This document shows positions 6,991 through 22,066 of a stretch of 34,957 bases of DNA, one piece after another; positions within the stretch are counted from its first letter, which is position 1, and each line of letters opens with the position of its first letter. The notes beneath the pieces are model-generated. The model worked only from the letters and a program-made list of their open reading frames with translations, had not been told where the DNA came from and did no database searches. Source of the DNA: an uncultured Eubacteriales bacterium (GTDB lineage Bacteria > Bacillota > Clostridia > Lachnospirales > Lachnospiraceae); contig OMVN01000022.1 in the NCBI GenBank assembly GCA_900314525.1, positions 1 to 34,957 on the forward strand, read 5' to 3'. The translations under genes were made by a program, and so were the position numbers.

Positions 6991-7065
6991 CGGGGTGTGG
7001 CTCAGCTTGGCTAGAGCGCTTGATTTGGGATCAAGAGGTCGCAGGTTCGAATCCTGTCACCCCGA
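6991..7065 (+). tRNA. tRNA-Pro (TGG)
   Basis: Acceptor CGGGGTG pairs perfectly with CACCCCG. The anticodon loop is TTTGGGA and the T loop TTCGAAT. No CCA is encoded. Confidence 0.96.
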
Positions 7066-7071
7066 CTTTGT

Positions 7072-7142
7072 GCGGGTGTAGTTCAATGGTAGAACACTAG
7101 CCTTCCAAGCTAGATACGTGGGTTCGATTCCCATCACCCGCT
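7072..7142 (+). tRNA. tRNA-Gly (TCC)
   Basis: Acceptor GCGGGTG pairs perfectly with CACCCGC, and the anticodon loop is CTTCCAA. It lies 6 nt after tRNA-Pro. Confidence 0.96.
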
Positions 7143-7165
7143 TTTACATTGTAAAAATGTAATGT

Positions 7166-7239
<74 letters not shown>

Positions 7240-7246
7240 TTTTTTT

Positions 7247-7273
7247 CTAGGAGATGCTCCTGGAAATTTTTTT
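7247..7273 (+). terminator. Terminator-like hairpin inside the tRNA array (first)
   Basis: CTAGGAG and CTCCTGG form a 7-bp stem with an ATG loop. Three A residues and then seven T follow. It may end some transcripts after tRNA-Arg or serve as a processing boundary. Confidence 0.5.
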
Positions 7274-7279
7274 CTTATG

Positions 7280-7353
7280 GTGGGTATAGCGCAGTTGGTT
7301 AGCGCGCCAGATTGTGGCTCTGGAGGCCCAGGGTTCGAATCCCTGTATCCACC
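7280..7353 (+). tRNA. tRNA-His (GTG)
   Basis: Acceptor GTGGGTA pairs with TATCCAC. An extra G at 7279 can pair with discriminator C at 7353, the G-1:C73 identity pair of tRNA-His. The anticodon loop is TTGTGGC. Confidence 0.95.
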
Positions 7354-7358
7354 TTTTT

Positions 7359-7397
7359 GTTAGGGAGTATCACTTGGTGGTGTTTGCTAACTTTTTT
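7359..7397 (+). terminator. Terminator-like hairpin inside the tRNA array (second)
   Basis: A long stem runs from GTTAG at 7359 to CTAAC ending at 7391. Fourteen of fifteen positions can pair (several G-T) around a TTG loop, and six T residues follow directly. It has the form of an intrinsic terminator, yet two more tRNA genes lie downstream with no obvious new promoter. Confidence 0.65.
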
Positions 7398-7414
7398 CTT
7401 TCTAAAGTGACCAT

Positions 7415-7486
7415 TGGGCCATCGCCAAGCGGTAAGGCACAGGACTTTGACTCCTGCATTCGCTGGTTCGAATCCAGTTGGCCCAG
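7415..7486 (+). tRNA. tRNA-Gln (TTG)
   Basis: Acceptor TGGGCCA pairs perfectly with TGGCCCA, and the anticodon loop is CTTTGAC. It lies downstream of the 7359 hairpin. Confidence 0.96.
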
Positions 7487-7497
7487 CTTATAAATAT

Positions 7498-7570
7498 GGG
7501 ATATTAGCTCAGGTGGTAGAGCACTTGACTTTTAATCAAGTTGTCCGGGGTTCGAATCCCCGATGTCTCA
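7498..7570 (+). tRNA. tRNA-Lys (TTT)
   Basis: Acceptor GGGATAT pairs with ATGTCTC with two G-T pairs. The anticodon loop is CTTTTAA and the T loop TTCGAAT. Confidence 0.95.
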
Positions 7571-9093: not shown

Positions 9094-9174
9094 GCGGATG
9101 TGGCGGAACTGGCAGACGCGCTAGACTTAGGATCTAGTGGGACAACCGTGCAGGTTCAATTCCTGTCATCCGCA
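9094..9174 (+). tRNA. tRNA-Leu (TAG)
   Basis: Class II tRNA of 81 nt. Acceptor GCGGATG pairs perfectly with CATCCGC and the anticodon loop is CTTAGGA. It is a single-gene unit with its own promoter and terminator. Confidence 0.96.
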
Positions 9175-14757: not shown

Positions 14758-16026
14758 ATGGACATATTTGACTATATGAGAGAGAGTAGTAAGGGTAGTA
14801 AAGAGCCACTTGCATCCAGGATGAGACCAAAAAAAATAGAAGACGTCGTTGGTCAGGAACATATTCTCTCAAAAGATAAATTATTATACAGGGCAATAAA
14901 GGCAGACAAACTCAGTTCTGTTATATTCTATGGCCCTCCGGGAACAGGAAAAACAACTCTTGCAAGAGTAATTGCAGAGTGTACAAATGGTGCATTTGTG
15001 CAGATTAATGCCACCATAGCTGGCAAGAAGGATATGGAAGAGGCCATTAAGAAAGCAAAAGATGATTTTGGAATGTATGACAGAAAGACCATAATGTTTA
15101 TTGATGAGATACACAGGTTTAATAAAAGTCAGCAGGATTATCTGCTCCCATTTGTTGAGGACGGAACAGTTATTCTTATTGGAGCGACAACAGAAAATCC
15201 ATATTTTGAAGTAAACAATGCGTTAATATCAAGATCTACTGTCTTTGAGTTGAAAGAATTATCCTCAGATGATATTTGCAAACTGATACGACGAGCTTTG
15301 GAAGATAAAGAAAATGGCGTTGGTGCCATGGACGTATCAATGAGTGATGATGCAATAGCATTTTTAGCAGACGCATCTAACGGTGATGCCAGAACTGCCC
15401 TTAATGCGTTAGAACTTGCTGTACTTACTACAGACAGAAATTCAGAAGGAATTATAGAAATAGATGCTGATGTTATCTCTGAGTGTATTCAGAAACGAAA
15501 TCTGAAATATGATAAAAACGGAGATAAGCATTATGACACAATATCAGCATTTATAAAAAGCATGAGGGGATCAGATAAAAATGCTGTTGTTTATTATCTG
15601 GCAAGAATGCTGGCAGCAGGTGAGAGTGTTGATTTTGTTGCAAGAAGAATTATGATTTGCGCTGCGGAAGATGTGGGACTTGCTGACCCACAGGCAATAA
15701 ATGTTGCAACATCAGCGGCAAGAATTGCCAGACAGGTTGGAATGCCAGAGGCAAGGATACCACTTGCAATGGCTGCTATTTATGTGGCAGAGGCCCCTAA
15801 AAGTAACTCTGCATATATGGCAATTAACAGGGCAATGGACTTTGTAAAGAATCATAATCTATATGACATTCCAGCATATTTAAGGGTTGGTTCCTATAAG
15901 GGCGCAGCAGATTTAGGACATGGAATTGGTTATCTTTATCCTCATGACTATGAGGGGCATTATGTTGAACAGCAGTACCTTCCAGATGAAATAAAAAACA
16001 TCAGTTTTTTTGACGAAGAAAAGTAA
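14758..16026 (+). CDS. rarA: Replication-associated recombination protein RarA (AAA+ ATPase)
   Basis: RarA/MgsA acts at stalled replication forks and interacts with SSB. Walker A GPPGTGKTT starts at residue 59, and Walker B is MFIDEIHRFN. Sensor 1 is GATTENPYF, followed by the arginine-finger segment SRSTVFELK. The RarA-specific C-terminal tetramerisation part includes AEDVGLADPQA, ALAMAAIYVAEAPKSN-like sequence and a GYLYPHDYEGH tail. The start at 14758 gives 422 residues, as is usual, and begins MDIFDYMRES. The frame is open to 14671, but those extra codons overlap the promoter. GCGAGG lies 11 nt upstream, a slightly long spacing. It is followed after 70 nt by the three-gene operon at 16097. 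Confidence 0.95.
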   Translation: MDIFDYMRESSKGSKEPLASRMRPKKIEDVVGQEHILSKDKLLYRAIKADKLSSVIFYGPPGTGKTTLARVIAECTNGAFVQINATIAGKKDMEEAIKKAKDDFGMYDRKTIMFIDEIHRFNKSQQDYLLPFVEDGTVILIGATTENPYFEVNNALISRSTVFELKELSSDDICKLIRRALEDKENGVGAMDVSMSDDAIAFLADASNGDARTALNALELAVLTTDRNSEGIIEIDADVISECIQKRNLKYDKNGDKHYDTISAFIKSMRGSDKNAVVYYLARMLAAGESVDFVARRIMICAAEDVGLADPQAINVATSAARIARQVGMPEARIPLAMAAIYVAEAPKSNSAYMAINRAMDFVKNHNLYDIPAYLRVGSYKGAADLGHGIGYLYPHDYEGHYVEQQYLPDEIKNISFFDEEK

Positions 16027-16096
16027 TTATGATATATTAATAGTAGCACATTATGACAATAAGATTAGAGCATATTTACATTATTAGGAGGACACT

Positions 16097-19000
16097 TTGA
16101 AAGAGTTAGTCGGGAAATTATCAAGAGGCCAAGTTGAATATAGTTTACCCCAAGTAGATGTTTCTGTGATTTCAATAGAAAAAAATATTGAAGCAGGGCT
16201 TATTTACTGTGATTCTTTTGAGGTGTTTAATAAATTGCCAGGTGAAATCAAGGGTATAGTATATTCTACAAATGAGTATCTTACAATTACTGAAAATCAG
16301 TTTCTTGGTAAAATTAATAAAATTGAGTATCGAATAGATACACGAGTTCTTGAACCAGGAGATGAAATTAAGGGAAGAATAAATATTGTAACCAATGGCG
16401 GAGAAGTATATGTGCCATTTGATTTCAGAATAAAAGAGGAGAGTATAGAATGTAAGACGGGAAAGGTTTCTAACATGTTTCATTTTATTAACCTTGTTAA
16501 AGAGGACTATGATGAAGCACAGAAGATGTTCTTGTCCGATAAATTTGAGAAAATTGTTCTTAAAGATAATATTGAGGATATCTGCATGTACAGAGGTCTG
16601 ATTAAGAATGCAGATAAGAGACTTGCTCTTGAAGAATTTATTATTGCAATAAATAAAAAACAGCAGGTGGAATTCGATATTTCCGAACCAGAGAGAACAT
16701 ATAAAAATATCTCGGATTCATATGGAGATATGGTAGTTCTTACAAAATCTACTTGGGGAATATTAGATATTAAAATATCAACAGACTGCGATTTTATTAC
16801 TGAATATAAGAAAAATATTACGGATGAAGATTTCGCAGGAAATAATTATGAATACAGCTATCTCATTGACAGGTCTAAGTTACATGCGGGAATAAATTAT
16901 GGACGAATTATTTTCAAGACTGTGAGTCAGACAAAAGAATTCCGTATTACTGTGGACAACAGGAAAGAACATGACATGTCACGACATGAGATAAAAAAAG
17001 CATTTATTGAGATGAACAAGGTATATCTAGATTTCAGAATGCGTAAATGTTCACTGGATAAATGGATAGAGATCTCTCAAAACCTTGTTGAGCATGCAAG
17101 AGGATATAGAGATGATGATCCTTTCCTCAGACTTTTTGAGGCACAGGTATATATTTCCAAGAAAGATGATGAAAAAGCAAAGTGGCTTATTGACAGCGTA
17201 ACAGAGCAGATTCTTGCAGTAAAAGAAGATAATATTCCTCTTTACTGCTATTATCTGTACATAAATGCTCTTCAGATTAGAGAGTTGGAATATACATTTA
17301 TGGTTACAGACACCATAAAGAAATATTATGAAAATGGATATGATAAATGGGAGCTTCTATGGATATTGCTCTACATTGATCCTTCATTTGAAAATAATAA
17401 GAGTTTAAAACTTGCAAGAATAAAAGAACAGTATAACTTAGGATGCAGAAGCACGTTAATGTATTACGAGGCGTTATATGCACTTAACAGACAGCCAATG
17501 CTACTTAGAATGGTTAACGATTTTGAATTACAGGTATTAAATTTTGCAAGTAAATATGATGCAATCGATTTGAGACTTGCAGTTCAGCTGGCAGAGATTT
17601 CAGTACATGAGAAGAAATTCAGACCAATTCTATTTAACATACTTACAAGACTATATAAAAAGTTTGAAAATAAAGTTATATTAAATGCGATACTCAGTAC
17701 ACTGATACGTGGAAATATGACAAATCAGAAATATTTCCAATGGTTTGAATTAGGGGTTAAGCAGGATATACAGATTACAGGATTGTATGAATACTATGTT
17801 TCTGCTATCCCTGATGATTTTCAGGGAGATATACCAGAAACTGTACTTATGTATTTTGTATATAACAGCAGCCTATTAGGAATCAGAGAGGCATTTTATT
17901 ATTCCTTAATTATCAGGGACAAGGAAAATCATCCTAATGTTTACAAAAACTATGCCCCTAATATTGAAAAATTTGCGCTCGACAGATTAAAATCTGGAAA
18001 AATTGATGAATATCTTGCAGTAGTTTACCAGGACATTTTATCTAAGGAACTTATTATGGAAGAGAATGAGAAGATGCTTTCAAAGGTTCTAAACACATGG
18101 ATGTTAAGAACAGATAATAAAAACATTAGGGAAGTTCTCGTAATACACAAAGAAACAGATAGAGAGATGGTATATCCTCTAATAAGAGGCAGAGCATATG
18201 TAGAAATATATACAGACGATGCCATTATCTTATTCAAAGATTTTAAGGGAAATACATACCTAAATACAGTAGATTACAAAATTGAGAAATTATTAAACAG
18301 AAAAGATTTAAACGAAGTTTCTCTAAGCAGAAATTCGGAAAATATATTTGTCATGGCAAGGGAATGCGAACAGTCAATCAAGTATCACAAGAGACTGTTT
18401 AATGGAAATGAACTGTTCACTGTTATTATGGCGGATGATAAATTCAGAAGTGAATTTAAGGATAATATTCTCGATGATATTATAGAGTATTATCTTGATA
18501 ATTATGACGGTGAAAAGCTGGATGAATACTTAAAGGGACTAAATGTAAATAAACTGAACAGAAAATCAAGAATTACAGTATCTGAACTTATGATCATGAG
18601 AGGTCTTTACAATGAAGTTCTTGAGATTCTTGACAAATATGGTTCAAAGGGCATAGAGGACAGAAAACTATTAAAACTTTGTACATCTGTAATAAGGGAA
18701 AATATTCCATGCAATGAGGAGAGTCTGATTGGATATTGCGACAAGGCATTTAAAAAGGGAAAATATAATGAGGAATCGTTAAAGTTGCTTTTAAGTAAAT
18801 TTAATGGAACTACAAAAGAGATGTTGGAACTCTTCAGAGTTTCAAAGGAATTTGATATAGAAGACAGAGATCTTGAAGAGAGAATTATAGCCCAGATGCT
18901 ATTTTCTAGATCAAGTATTGAGAGCATCTGTGTGGTTTACGAGTCATATTATAGATTAGGCGCACTTGATATGATAAAGAAAGCCTATTTCTTCTATGTT

Positions 19001-19648
19001 GCATATTCATATTTTGTGAAAAAAGAGCAGATAGACAATTTGTATTTTGTCCATCTTGAGGATGAAATAAATTCTGGAAATCAGATACATGATATATGCA
19101 AATGTGCATATTTGCTGGTTAACTCTGAGAAAAAGAATATCAGAGAGGTAACGAAAAATAACTGTAAGGAGTTTATTGACCAGTTGGCAAAGAAGAAAAT
19201 AATATTTGATTTCTACAAAAAATATAGCAAATGGTTTGAGATAAAAGGAGATGTTCTCAATCATACAACAGTTGAATACAGATGCAGCAGTGTTGATAAA
19301 GTACTTGTTAATTATTATATAGATAATGGTAATAACGCTGCAAATGAATATGTTTCAGAGGATATGATTCAGGTATTTGGCGGCTTGTATATAAAATCAT
19401 TTGTACTGTTTTATGGAGAGAAGATTAACTATTACATTATGGAAGTTAAGGGTGAGGATACTACGATTACTTCCAGCGAAGAGCACATTTTAGATGACAG
19501 AGGAATTAATACAAGTCTTACAAGATATGGTAGGTTAAACGATCTTCTTGTGTGCAGCGATATGAAAGAAGAAGATACAATTAGTAATTTAATAACAGAT
19601 TATTATGTTAATAATGAGATGGTAAAGGAATTGTTTTTGAAATCATAA
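16097..19648 (+). CDS. Giant solenoid protein, DUF5717-like
   Basis: A 1183-residue protein that I associate with DUF5717, a Lachnospiraceae family without known function. No signal peptide or membrane segment is seen, so it should be cytosolic. Two beta-rich segments (about 20-115 and 195-285) flank a helical stretch, in the manner of tandem beta-sandwiches. About 290-660 and 780-1000 are helical repeats resembling a TPR-like solenoid, separated by another beta-rich piece near 680-745. The last 130 residues are beta-rich again. The start is TTG at 16097 with AGGAGG 5 nt upstream. Its stop lies 15 nt before the Hsp70-like gene, so the two are co-transcribed. Role inferred: scaffold or client-binding partner. 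Confidence 0.75.
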   Translation: MKELVGKLSRGQVEYSLPQVDVSVISIEKNIEAGLIYCDSFEVFNKLPGEIKGIVYSTNEYLTITENQFLGKINKIEYRIDTRVLEPGDEIKGRINIVTNGGEVYVPFDFRIKEESIECKTGKVSNMFHFINLVKEDYDEAQKMFLSDKFEKIVLKDNIEDICMYRGLIKNADKRLALEEFIIAINKKQQVEFDISEPERTYKNISDSYGDMVVLTKSTWGILDIKISTDCDFITEYKKNITDEDFAGNNYEYSYLIDRSKLHAGINYGRIIFKTVSQTKEFRITVDNRKEHDMSRHEIKKAFIEMNKVYLDFRMRKCSLDKWIEISQNLVEHARGYRDDDPFLRLFEAQVYISKKDDEKAKWLIDSVTEQILAVKEDNIPLYCYYLYINALQIRELEYTFMVTDTIKKYYENGYDKWELLWILLYIDPSFENNKSLKLARIKEQYNLGCRSTLMYYEALYALNRQPMLLRMVNDFELQVLNFASKYDAIDLRLAVQLAEISVHEKKFRPILFNILTRLYKKFENKVILNAILSTLIRGNMTNQKYFQWFELGVKQDIQITGLYEYYVSAIPDDFQGDIPETVLMYFVYNSSLLGIREAFYYSLIIRDKENHPNVYKNYAPNIEKFALDRLKSGKIDEYLAVVYQDILSKELIMEENEKMLSKVLNTWMLRTDNKNIREVLVIHKETDREMVYPLIRGRAYVEIYTDDAIILFKDFKGNTYLNTVDYKIEKLLNRKDLNEVSLSRNSENIFVMARECEQSIKYHKRLFNGNELFTVIMADDKFRSEFKDNILDDIIEYYLDNYDGEKLDEYLKGLNVNKLNRKSRITVSELMIMRGLYNEVLEILDKYGSKGIEDRKLLKLCTSVIRENIPCNEESLIGYCDKAFKKGKYNEESLKLLLSKFNGTTKEMLELFRVSKEFDIEDRDLEERIIAQMLFSRSSIESICVVYESYYRLGALDMIKKAYFFYVAYSYFVKKEQIDNLYFVHLEDEINSGNQIHDICKCAYLLVNSEKKNIREVTKNNCKEFIDQLAKKKIIFDFYKKYSKWFEIKGDVLNHTTVEYRCSSVDKVLVNYYIDNGNNAANEYVSEDMIQVFGGLYIKSFVLFYGEKINYYIMEVKGEDTTITSSEEHILDDRGINTSLTRYGRLNDLLVCSDMKEEDTISNLITDYYVNNEMVKELFLKS

Positions 19649-19663
19649 GAAATGGAGCAGACA

Positions 19664-20941
19664 ATGAAGGATACTAAGACATATGTTTCAATAGATTTAT
19701 GCAATGATTATACCCAGATGGCATATTACGTTACTAATGATATGGAGGAGCCGTTGTCTCTGACTACCACAAAAAATGATCAGAGATATCTGGTTCCAAC
19801 AGCTGTTTCGAAAAAAAATGATAGTGACGAATGGCTGGCTGGAAATGATGCCAGCAATAATAAGTTAGCAGGATATACTTATATTAACAACATAGTTGAC
19901 AAAGTATTAAGGGGCGAGAATGTATCTGCTGGAAATAATAATTACAGTGGGGATTTTCTGCTGAAAAAATTTTTGATTACCCTTATAGATAAGGCTACAA
20001 AGGCATATCAGATAAAAAGTATAGATTACATCGTTGTTACAGTAGAAAATACAGATAGAATTTTATCAGATTTACTTAGGGGAATCCTCGAGGAGTATGG
20101 AATTGATAAAAATCATATAAAAGTAATTGGACACTCAGAGAGTTTGATATACTATATGGTATTTCAGAAAAGAGAACTTTGGGTAAATGATGTGATAATT
20201 TTTGATTTTACAAAAGATCAGTTTCTTATGAGAAGGCTTCAGACAATGAGAGTCAGAAGACCATGGCCAGTAATAGTGGAAGAAAAGGATTTGTCGGACA
20301 AATTTAATTATGAGATGTTAGAGACTGATGAAGGGAAACAAAGAGCAGATGAGGAATTTCTGAAATTTGTTAGTGATTTCTGCTCAAAAAATATTGTATC
20401 AAGTGTTTTCTTTACAGGAATTGGCTTTAATGGTAAATGGATGGAGAAAACAGTAAAATACCTTTGCACGAAAAGAAGAGTTTTTAAGGGTCTTAACTTG
20501 TTTGTAAAGGGAGCGGCATTTGCTGCAATGTCTATTAACGGAATGGGAAATGCTGATGAATATCAGTTTGTATGTTCAGGAAGAACACTGGTAGATATAA
20601 ATCTGCAGGTAAATAAAGATGGAAAAGATGTATCCGTTGTACTTTCTAAGGCTGGAACCAACTGGTATGATGCAGGAGCAAGAGCTGAGGGAATTCTCGA
20701 TAATGTGAATTCTGTAAATATAGAGATAGATTCTTCAATCAGCAAGAAAAAAGAAATAGTTACACTTGATCTTAAGGATTTTCCAGAAAGACCAAATAAG
20801 ACAACAAGGATAGAAGTTTTGCTGTCATATAGATCAGACAGAAGACTTGTAATAATAGCTCAGGATATGGGATTTGGTGATTTTTATAAATCCACCGGGG
20901 CACAGGTGAAAAAAGAAATTAATGTAGAAGATTATCTGTAA
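19664..20941 (+). CDS. Hsp70/actin-fold protein with altered nucleotide loops, DUF5716-like
   Basis: A 425-residue protein that looks like an Hsp70 relative. Residues 8-55 follow the Hsp70 N-terminal plan (VSIDLCNDYTQMAYYV, then a PTAV strand and an AGNDA turn). Phosphate-1 reads DLCND at 11-15 instead of DLGTT. Phosphate-2 reads DFTKDQ from D181 instead of DLGGGT. The adenosine region is better kept (TGIGFNGKWM from 251, then VKGAAFAA). About 310-420 is beta-rich, in the place of the Hsp70 substrate-binding beta domain; no helical lid is evident. ATG 19664 is preferred because GGAG lies 6 nt upstream; ATG 19652 is in frame but overlaps it. ATP hydrolysis is doubtful. Confidence 0.75.
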   Translation: MKDTKTYVSIDLCNDYTQMAYYVTNDMEEPLSLTTTKNDQRYLVPTAVSKKNDSDEWLAGNDASNNKLAGYTYINNIVDKVLRGENVSAGNNNYSGDFLLKKFLITLIDKATKAYQIKSIDYIVVTVENTDRILSDLLRGILEEYGIDKNHIKVIGHSESLIYYMVFQKRELWVNDVIIFDFTKDQFLMRRLQTMRVRRPWPVIVEEKDLSDKFNYEMLETDEGKQRADEEFLKFVSDFCSKNIVSSVFFTGIGFNGKWMEKTVKYLCTKRRVFKGLNLFVKGAAFAAMSINGMGNADEYQFVCSGRTLVDINLQVNKDGKDVSVVLSKAGTNWYDAGARAEGILDNVNSVNIEIDSSISKKKEIVTLDLKDFPERPNKTTRIEVLLSYRSDRRLVIIAQDMGFGDFYKSTGAQVKKEINVEDYL

Positions 20942-20959
20942 TCGGAAATGAGGCAGAAT

Positions 20960-21796
20960 ATGAGCGGATTGTTATTGTGTGGAAAAAAGTCTGACGTACC
21001 ATATAGGATAAATGATTCAGACATTTCAATATATTCTATAGAAGAACTAGCATATTATCTTTTTAATAACGTCTATTTTATTGACGATGAATTTTTTACG
21101 GATAATCTTGCGGAATATATTGAAAAAAATCTAAATATGAAAAAGATAGCAGGTAGACTTAAGCTGGCAGAGAGACAGAGAATGTCATATGTTGATAAGA
21201 TGATGATAATTATTACAGGTTCATCATATTATACAGAAGATGAAGCAAAAAACTTTGAAAGAGAATTAAAGGAAATAAGCACAAAGAGCGTACAGGAAAG
21301 AATGTGTGCCAAGGCTAATATGCTGTTCAATAATGGAAAATATATTGCTGCAAAGAAAATATATGATTCCATACTTGCAATGGATAGAAATACTTCTCTC
21401 AAAGATGAATTTTATAATAATATTCATGTTAATATTGCAAAAATATACTGTAATATGTTTTATTTTGACTCTGCGGTAGAGCATCTCCATATTGTATATG
21501 ATAATAACAAATCCCAGGAAATTCTAAAATTAGTAATTATGGCAAAGCTTATGAAGTCCAAAGTGCATGATACGGACGTGGACTTAAGCGAGGAGACTGC
21601 CATTGATGATAAACTTGTTTTTGTATGCAAGGAAGAGTTTTTTGATACAGAAGATAATGTATGCAATACAGAAAAATATCACAAGTTTAGAGATGAATTA
21701 CAATATGAAACAGGTCAGAACCCTGGTGAATATTATGAAAAGGTAAGTAAGGTTCTGGATAACTGGAAAAAAGAGTACAGAGAGTATGTTTCATAA
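20960..21796 (+). CDS. TPR-like protein, third gene of the solenoid/Hsp70-like operon
   Basis: A 278-residue soluble protein of unknown family. The N-terminal 80 residues are mixed (ISIYSIEELAYYLFNNVYF, an acidic helical segment). About 115-200 are helical pairs with TPR spacing (AKANMLFNNGKYIAAKKIYD, then a second pair around YFDSAVEHLHIVYD). The end is charged helix. The start at 20960 has GAGG 6 nt upstream; ATG 20948 is in frame but lacks a site. The gene begins 18 nt after its neighbour and is followed by the valS promoter. Its position suggests it acts with the DUF5717/DUF5716-like pair, as an adaptor or co-chaperone-like component. Confidence 0.7.
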   Translation: MSGLLLCGKKSDVPYRINDSDISIYSIEELAYYLFNNVYFIDDEFFTDNLAEYIEKNLNMKKIAGRLKLAERQRMSYVDKMMIIITGSSYYTEDEAKNFERELKEISTKSVQERMCAKANMLFNNGKYIAAKKIYDSILAMDRNTSLKDEFYNNIHVNIAKIYCNMFYFDSAVEHLHIVYDNNKSQEILKLVIMAKLMKSKVHDTDVDLSEETAIDDKLVFVCKEEFFDTEDNVCNTEKYHKFRDELQYETGQNPGEYYEKVSKVLDNWKKEYREYVS

Positions 21797-21797
21797 C

Positions 21798-21826
21798 TTG
21801 ACAAAAAATAATAAACCATTTATTAT
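21798..21826 (+). promoter_or_regulatory. Promoter of the valS leader
   Basis: TTGACA (21798-21803), a 17-nt spacer and TATTAT (21821-21826). A TATAAT at 21832 is 28 nt from the -35 and less likely. It begins 1 nt after the stop codon of the TPR-like gene. Confidence 0.75.
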
Positions 21827-21839
21827 TTCATTATAATAT

Positions 21840-22066
21840 TAAAATGCAGTGAGAAAGAGGAGTAGATTCTGGTTCCCTGACAGAGAAAATGATTCACAGG
21901 CTGGAAAATCATTAGAACGAACTAGTTTTGAAGGTAGCTTTTTAGCAGTACTGCTGAAATTAGTAAGCAGTAACGGAGTCGTCTACGTTATAAGATATGA
22001 TGAGTAAAAAAAAGGTGGAACCGCATTTATTGCCCTTTATTCTATTTTGAATAAAGAGCTTTTTTT
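21840..22066 (+). promoter_or_regulatory. T-box leader of valS
   Basis: A tRNA-sensing leader. AGGTGGAACCGC at 22013-22024 is the T-box consensus. AGTAGATT near 21863 is the expected bulge of stem I, and GAAG-GTA-G at 21931-21937 offers GTA (Val) as specifier codon on the 3' side of stem I. AGCAG-TA-CTGCT near 21944 is stem III. Uncharged tRNA-Val, such as the TAC tRNA at 604-676, should stabilise the antiterminator and let transcription enter valS. The specifier assignment is by position only. Confidence 0.92.
22032..22066 (+). terminator. T-box-controlled terminator before valS
   Basis: GCCCTTTATTC (22032-22042) and GAATAAAGAGC (22049-22059) form an 11-bp stem with one mismatch and a six-base loop, followed by seven T. 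Its 5' arm follows directly on the T-box sequence, so it excludes the antiterminator. Confidence 0.9.

Follow-up and report, generated by a model that had tools for sequence, protein, structure and literature searches.

A DUF5717, DUF5716 and TPR gene unit of Lachnospiraceae and its kinship with a multi-Hsp70 operon of other families

Why would a bacterium keep an Hsp70-like protein that has lost its phosphate motifs, encoded between two helical-repeat proteins? The question is raised by an operon in a stretch of 34,957 nucleotides (nt) from an uncultured Eubacteriales bacterium of the Lachnospiraceae (the window; assembly GCA_900314525.1, contig OMVN01000022.1, positions 1 to 34,957 of the forward strand). 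Its three open reading frames (ORFs), all on the + strand, are genes 1, 2 and 3, and their products, P1, P2 and P3, are a DUF5717 protein, a DUF5716 pseudo-Hsp70 and a TPR-like protein. An earlier note made from the sequence of the window had described an Hsp70-like pseudo-ATPase between two helical-repeat proteins in a dedicated multi-gene unit, a description that the present analysis supports. Specifically, we find that the homologous locus in other families of the order, as read from its sequence, is an Hsp70 operon, and on balance we favor the view that P1–P3 form a cytosolic complex, the reduced descendant of a dedicated multi-Hsp70 machine, that acts as a nucleotide-independent scaffold.

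Distribution and anatomy of the three-gene unit

In a sample of 150 Lachnospiraceae genomes, one per genus, DUF5716_C was found in 145, with a single match in 143 of these; two matches occur in G427 and G435, those of G435 being neighboring pieces. Across the order it was found in 89 of 196 genomes, 67 of them from families other than Lachnospiraceae (hereafter sister families), where nearly all matches are weaker and most genomes have two. DUF5717_N was found in 11 of 291 genomes of the class (ten Lachnospiraceae and one weak match under the cut-off) and in 4 of 299 genomes of the phylum. The unit is not, as the earlier note had proposed, restricted to a few Clostridia.

The three genes are linked well beyond chance. 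At 148 loci chosen by the presence of DUF5716_C, a choice that cannot reveal P1 or P3 without P2, they are contiguous in 144, with median intergenic gaps of 15 and 1 nt (among the 148, L203 is assigned to a sister family). Homologues that are routinely unlinked or single, which the earlier note had named as an argument against a complex, are not what this survey of gene order finds. The exceptions are a contig end (L101), a locus with no P3 in 3 kilobases (kb; L134), one with no P1 (L145) and one with P2 alone (L067), and tblastn searches there for the missing parts gave nothing convincing. In a second set of 80 loci (L205–L284), which overlaps the first (L205 equals L036 at 100% identity), all three genes stand in order at 78; L279, an exception, is a 3.8 kb contig.

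P2 is a clear member of DUF5716 (PF18980; 323.1 bits against a cut-off of 34.7), and its AlphaFold2 model (predicted local distance difference test, pLDDT, 91.7; predicted template modeling score, pTM, 0.88) has an actin-like domain and a beta domain. In Foldseek its best match is DnaK (7kru, E 3.9e-19, TMq 0.64), and Hsp70 and Hsp110 chains make up most of the 50 matches listed. The predicted structure confirms that P2 keeps the Hsp70 fold, as the earlier note had read the plan of the middle protein. P2 shares with Hsp70/DnaK (PF00012) the nucleotide-binding-like and beta substrate domains, but differs in lacking the phosphate motifs, subdomain IIB and, in a model that stops after the beta domain, the helical lid (SBD-alpha); the Pfam HSP70 profile matches neither P2 itself nor its place in a whole-genome scan, and a PDB sequence search with P2 gave no result. 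Subdomain IIB is the adenine clamp and the GrpE contact site of Hsp70. Across 142 P2 proteins (unfused ORFs of 0.8–1.3 times the length of P2 in the window, fused and short ones excluded), the phosphate motifs GTT and GGGT are each found in none, and the segment aligned to IIB holds no residues in any of the 142. At one locus (L061), P2 is divided between two ORFs. The fold matches of P2 also include two atypical Hsp70s that serve as partners, Ssz1, which works with a J-domain protein, and Hsp110/Sse1. Each of these retains IIB within its nucleotide-binding domain, whereas P2 has no IIB; a J-domain protein was not seen among the window and sister proteins scanned.

P1 is likewise a clear member of its family (PF18984 and PF18983, 989.8 and 283.1 bits against a cut-off of 25). 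Its model (pLDDT 84.4, pTM 0.54) bears out one part of the earlier description as a giant solenoid, since a long helical solenoid is predicted, and amends the rest: a pair of Ig-like domains stands at the N-terminal end, a beta insert interrupts the solenoid, and a beta domain follows it toward the C terminus. Foldseek matches P1 to ASH/HYDIN/PapD-like beta domains over about 300 columns (E 2e-6; the part of P1 so covered is presumptive) and, at E 1e-6 to 1e-3, to ciliary central-pair, HYDIN and SPD-2 beta domains and to the TPR scaffolds Ctr9, SKI3 and IFT-A; because the whole-chain TM is low, these matches to the model are read as fold likenesses of parts. At L088 and L172 P1 is split close to where its Ig-like part meets the solenoid, which resembles the division of DUF5717 into two genes in the sister families.

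P3 reaches the cut-off of no TPR profile in Pfam (best 15.2 bits against 27 in the window), and its homologue at the sister-family locus L192 exceeds the cut-off for several; by sequence, P3 appears to be a diverged TPR-like protein. At five loci (L054–L058), a single ORF encodes P2 and P3; in L054–L057 it matches both profiles almost in full, and in L058 the P2 match is partial. These natural fusions have two origins on the P1 tree and speak for contact between P2 and P3.

All three proteins score below every NCBIfam cut-off, and neither Pfam nor NCBIfam gives a function for DUF5717 or DUF5716; none of the three proved to belong to a well-studied family with another role, the other outcome that the earlier note had held would count against it. 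In the library searched, DUF5717 is named in no paper and DUF5716 in one, which to judge by its title and opening lines is unrelated; the listings for Hsp70 gene clusters, pseudo- or atypical Hsp70s and Lachnospiraceae mutants likewise showed nothing relevant.

A fuller Hsp70 operon in sister families and the descent of P2

We inspected 13 loci from 13 sister families, chosen rather than drawn at random. As far as the stretches reach, their gene order is the Ig-half of DUF5717, the rest of DUF5717, A, a GrpE-domain protein, B, C, D and a TPR protein, where A, B, C and D are Hsp70-like proteins, B is a pseudo-Hsp70 and D carries a VWA domain. GrpE, B and C are present at 13 of 13 loci, A and D at 11, DUF5717 at 11 and the TPR protein at 10, and most gaps are ends of stretches or contigs (L195, L196 and L200); at L190, D and the TPR protein are each spread over two ORFs. 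The Pfam assignments at L192 are HSP70 for A (E 6e-78), C (E 2e-63) and D (E 8e-92, plus VWA), GrpE for the GrpE-domain protein (E 7e-11), DUF5716_C together with HSP70 for B (E 2e-33 and E 1.8e-14) and many TPRs for the TPR protein. In 10 of 10 chosen sister genomes, C is 59–83% identical to the C of L192. No DnaJ domain is listed for the three window proteins or for the ten sister proteins scanned, a statement about those proteins only.

A further gene extends the unit at many loci. It encodes protein X, of about 390 residues, with a coiled coil and a hydrophobic hairpin. Of 66 such proteins, 62 have two hydrophobic 19-mers and 4 have three; none of the five X proteins scanned matched a Pfam family over the cut-off. 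X directly follows P3 at 63 of 148 loci and lies within 0.7 kb of the TPR protein gene at 3 sister loci (for example L153:6846-8135 and L036:10479-11699, with 64 others). It was matched in 64 of 150 Lachnospiraceae genomes, within 2 kb downstream of P2 in 63 of these 64, and in the single exception the P2 contig ends inside P3; in the other 86 of 150, the genome of the window included, it has no match. In the second set X occurs at 79 of 80 loci, directly after P3 in 77, a share that is not that of the family as a whole, since this set was found through the motif of a narrow subgroup.

The sister operons at L190, L194 and L202 end in X and valS. Upstream of the sister operon at L202 stands a divergent aminotransferase gene (L202:17805-18947; Pfam Aminotran_1_2), and at 48 of 134 loci (for example L037:4151-5266) the upstream neighbor is a homologue of it, divergent in 47. 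Because these neighbors, the aminotransferase on one side and X and valS on the other, are common to both, they suggest that the sister operon and the Lachnospiraceae unit occupy the same ancestral locus.

A tree of 67 Hsp70-like proteins, in which D was cut to 500 residues and a fragment of 198 residues (L190_198) was dropped, places all 20 chosen P2 proteins together (support 100/99), with the B of L190 as their sister (100/96), and a branch with 100/100 support parts P2 and all B from A, C and D. In the midpoint drawing the root separates P2 from the B proteins of loci other than L190; the tree has several long branches, and its bootstrap had not converged. Comparison of motifs follows the same division. 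Among the A, C and D proteins long enough to span GTT and GGGT (11 A, 13 C and 10 D; L190_539 is counted as C by its placement in the tree), 34 of 34 have the two motifs intact, as against 0 of 13 B and 0 of 142 P2. The segment aligned to IIB of D has 35–45 residues in the A–D proteins inspected and is empty in P2. It is well supported by these comparisons that P2 belongs with the sister pseudo-Hsp70 B. The B of L190, which has degenerate motifs and a IIB segment at a locus where DUF5717 is still in two genes, is an intermediate.

The motors themselves are absent from the Lachnospiraceae unit. At the 148 loci, queries with A and GrpE gave no match, the C query matched at 90, always P2 itself, and the D query gave one weak ORF (L083, E 4.5e-6). 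At E 1e-60 a C-type Hsp70 was found in 0 of 120 Lachnospiraceae genomes and in 0 of 299 genomes of the phylum, which include only one member of the order outside Lachnospiraceae and say little about the order. The genome of the window holds what appear to be a DnaK-like gene (contig C49), one more Hsp70 (contig C53) and two short MreB-sized matches. We rejected relocation of A or D in this genome, the best candidate being the DnaK-like gene on C49 (38–39% identity, VWA part unmatched), and likewise the second Hsp70 on C53 as a paralogue from the operon, as it scores below C49 in the A and D searches. We favor loss in the Lachnospiraceae over gain elsewhere, mainly because P2 has Hsp70 ancestry. 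If the role of IIB in contacting GrpE holds here, its loss from P2 parallels the missing GrpE gene. Moreover, the sister families already carry the pseudo-Hsp70 in degenerate form, which suggests that its role was a structural one even ahead of the loss of the motors.

Boundaries of the operon and neighboring genes

The longest ORF of gene 2 begins at 19652 (429 residues) and that of gene 3 at 20948 (282 residues), which would leave gaps of 3 and 6 nt; the starts with GGAG/GAGG ahead of them are those in Table 1, and with these the gaps of 15 and 18 nt given in the earlier note, for genes in one direction, are exact. Also borne out are its placing of rarA before the operon (rarA ends at 16026, 70 nt upstream of gene 1) and of a promoter of valS 1 nt after it. 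The operon probably ends with gene 3, because this promoter-like box and the T-box leader of valS lie directly downstream. The leader scores 89.5 bits against an Rfam gathering score of 93, and a scan at the gathering score misses it. No strong hydrophobic segment was found in P1, P2 or P3 (best 19-residue means 0.76–1.32), which is consistent with the cytosolic location that the earlier note had assigned to all three.

Table 1. Features of the operon and its borders, in window coordinates
Feature	Position	Strand	Basis or remark
Promoter-like TTGACG-17-TATATT with a TG ahead of its second hexamer; overlaps the rarA end	16010..16038	+	Consensus match only
Shine-Dalgarno AGGAGG, 5 nt before the gene 1 start	16086..16091	+	Read directly
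Gene 1, DUF5717 protein (P1), 1183 residues	16097..19648	+	TTG start; PF18984 E 1.3e-297, PF18983 E 3.4e-84
P1 first Ig-like domain, about residues 19–125	16151..16471	+	Structure model, Foldseek
P1 second Ig-like domain, about residues 190–290	16664..16966	+	Structure model
P1 helical solenoid, first part, residues 293–665	16973..18091	+	Model; Foldseek TPR scaffolds Ctr9, SKI3, IFT-A
P1 beta insert, residues 667–731	18095..18289	+	Structure model
P1 helical solenoid, second part, residues 736–1054	18302..19258	+	Structure model
P1 C-terminal beta domain, residues 1056–1131	19262..19489	+	Structure model
Gene 2, DUF5716 pseudo-Hsp70 (P2)	19664..20941	+	425 residues from Shine-Dalgarno-preceded ATG; PF18980 E 1.8e-96; model, Foldseek
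P2 degenerate phosphate-1 motif, SIDLCNDYT vs GIDLGTTNS	19688..19714	+	Motif comparison
P2 degenerate phosphate-2 motif, DFTKDQFL vs DLGGGTFD	20204..20227	+	Motif comparison
P2 substrate-binding-like beta domain	20561..20923	+	Model, Foldseek
Gene 3, TPR-like protein (P3)	20960..21796	+	278 residues from Shine-Dalgarno-preceded ATG
Promoter-like TTGACA-17-TATTAT of the next unit, bounding the operon	21798..21826	+	Box starts 1 nt after the gene 3 stop
T-box leader of valS, outside the operon, marking its end	21840..22040	+	89.5 bits, E 2e-20

Among the 148 loci the neighbors seen in the window are a minority feature, valS lying downstream in 33 of 125 testable loci and rarA upstream in 17 of 128. 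A codirectional htpG (Hsp90) gene lies 73–3751 nt upstream of the DUF5717 gene at 8 loci of the first set and 17 of 80 of the second, the sets overlapping (L061:13567-15705, L063, L080, L185 and 21 others); these may represent one sub-lineage and are not used as evidence. The window also holds 16 tRNA genes, in clusters of 9 and 6 plus a single gene, at 142-985, 6991-7570 and 9094-9174.

A proposed reduced chaperone machine, its alternatives and its meaning

The composition and descent of the unit are well supported, and a physical complex of P1–P3 is likely. In the model that we favor, the ancestral operon would have encoded an Ig-like/solenoid scaffold, usually in two genes, three intact Hsp70s, a pseudo-Hsp70, GrpE and a TPR protein, with X in some loci. 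In the Lachnospiraceae the motors and the GrpE gene would have gone, while the scaffold, now one protein, P2 without IIB and the TPR protein stayed, with or without X. P2 would no longer cycle with ATP and would act as a fixed adaptor, its beta substrate domain and body holding a client or partner; P3 would dock on the C-terminal side of P2, in the order of the natural fusions, and P1 would be the long arm that organizes the assembly, tethered to the membrane by X where X exists. From P2, clients may be handed over to the general DnaK of the cell.

Several observations weigh against this model. At L199 (L199:3678-10444), D and the TPR protein are absent from about 8 kb after C. Among Lachnospiraceae loci, L067 (P2 alone) and L145 (without P1) have flanks yet no partners nearby, and at L246, 3.3 kb before P2 hold no recognizable P1. 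The genome-wide search covered A and D in the genome of the window alone, and C across the Lachnospiraceae. The route of hand-over to DnaK is a guess, with no J-domain protein seen in either operon, and the predicted domain arrangement of P1 is uncertain at its pTM of 0.54. Finally, the proteins diverge fast: median identity to the window over 35 loci is 27.6% for P1, 29.0% for P2 and 25.5% for P3, against 69.7% for ValS, and we assume a conserved role on the strength of presence and gene order rather than of sequence.

Among the alternatives, the one that survives best is that the unit is a client-specific assembly factor at the membrane or envelope, which builds or positions one machine and for which X was the original membrane dock; we give it somewhat less than an even chance. 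A precedent is HscA, which serves iron-sulfur assembly. Occurrence in 145 of 150 genera, 143 of which show one match each, is what a housekeeping role would lead one to expect. In addition, hydrophobic 19-mers number two or three in all 66 X proteins, and 63 of the 64 genomes with X have it linked to P2. However, the 86 of 150 genomes in which X is unmatched, that of the window among them, imply that membrane tethering is dispensable, and a constant neighbor that would name the client is absent, valS and rarA being the minority neighbors counted above.

It is improbable, in our estimate, that the unit is the remnant of a nucleoside triphosphate-dependent conflict system, immunity-like, of the kind described by Kaur et al. 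(2020, PMC7159879). As far as the GAP1-N2 GTPase systems are set out in the relevant part of that paper, they bring together HSP70, GrpE, another HSP70 and FNIII-TPR proteins, and the parts of the sister operon (HSP70, GrpE, a second HSP70 and beta-sandwich/TPR proteins) overlap one such theme; the fast evolution of P1–P3 would also suit a conflict role. The sister operon differs from the systems in that part of the paper by its four Hsp70-like paralogues and its DUF5717 scaffold, and the unit by being near-universal in one family. A scan that covered the three window proteins and ten sister proteins lists a GTPase component for none of them. PADLOC gave 0 matches for P1–P3 and, among six sister proteins, weak PDC-M61B or PrimPol matches in three, Hsp70 C, Hsp70 D and the TPR protein. 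An origin from a conflict system is possible by the parts list but fits poorly with near-universal inheritance in constant order within the Lachnospiraceae, unlike the patchy occurrence of defense systems.

We also think it unlikely that the three proteins are merely co-transcribed and form no complex. Co-transcription could by itself hold genes together for a time, but P2 and P3 are naturally fused in two lineages, the genes stay contiguous at nearly all loci despite changing neighbors, and the same set is linked in the sister families. Least probable of all is a translation-linked role like that of the eukaryotic ribosome-associated complex with its atypical Hsp70 Ssz1, for although Ssz1 in that complex (6sr6, E 2.9e-16) is among the structural matches of P2 and valS recurs downstream, DnaK, BiP and Hsc70 match P2 equally well or better, no Zuo1-like J-domain partner was seen in the window and sister proteins scanned, and valS adjoins the unit in a minority of loci only.

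The reduced-machine model thus gives a frame to two families, DUF5716, present in almost every sampled Lachnospiraceae genus, and DUF5717, beside it at nearly all loci, that are without an assigned function in Pfam and NCBIfam; what is added to them here is the Hsp70 link, the operon, its fuller form and protein X. Beyond the earlier note, the analysis brings the multi-Hsp70/GrpE operon of the sister families, a membrane protein as fourth component, the finding that P2 has lost IIB and the presence of Ig-like domains in P1. The sister operon is itself unusual in that a single scaffold is encoded together with an exchange factor and four proteins of Hsp70 type, of which the intact motor C is conserved across families at the identities given above. 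A second DnaK of Myxococcus stands beside its own GrpE (PMC11019930), which is one Hsp70 and an exchange factor as against four Hsp70-like proteins and a scaffold; the main text of that paper has no words beginning with Lachnospir or Clostridi, nor the words VWA or TPR.

Kinship with the multi-Hsp70/GrpE operon predicts that the Lachnospiraceae unit would not use ATP, that P1, P2 and P3 would form a complex and that P2 and P3 would share an interface; a membrane tether is further predicted in under half of the Lachnospiraceae. We suggest, tentatively and with some leaning toward doubt, that the Lachnospiraceae, one of the major families of gut bacteria, depend as a whole on a nucleotide-free, Hsp70-derived machine, the scaffold of a hetero-Hsp70 complex that is still intact in the sister families. 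If this is true, the two states would be a natural before-and-after pair in the conversion of a chaperone motor into a structural adaptor.

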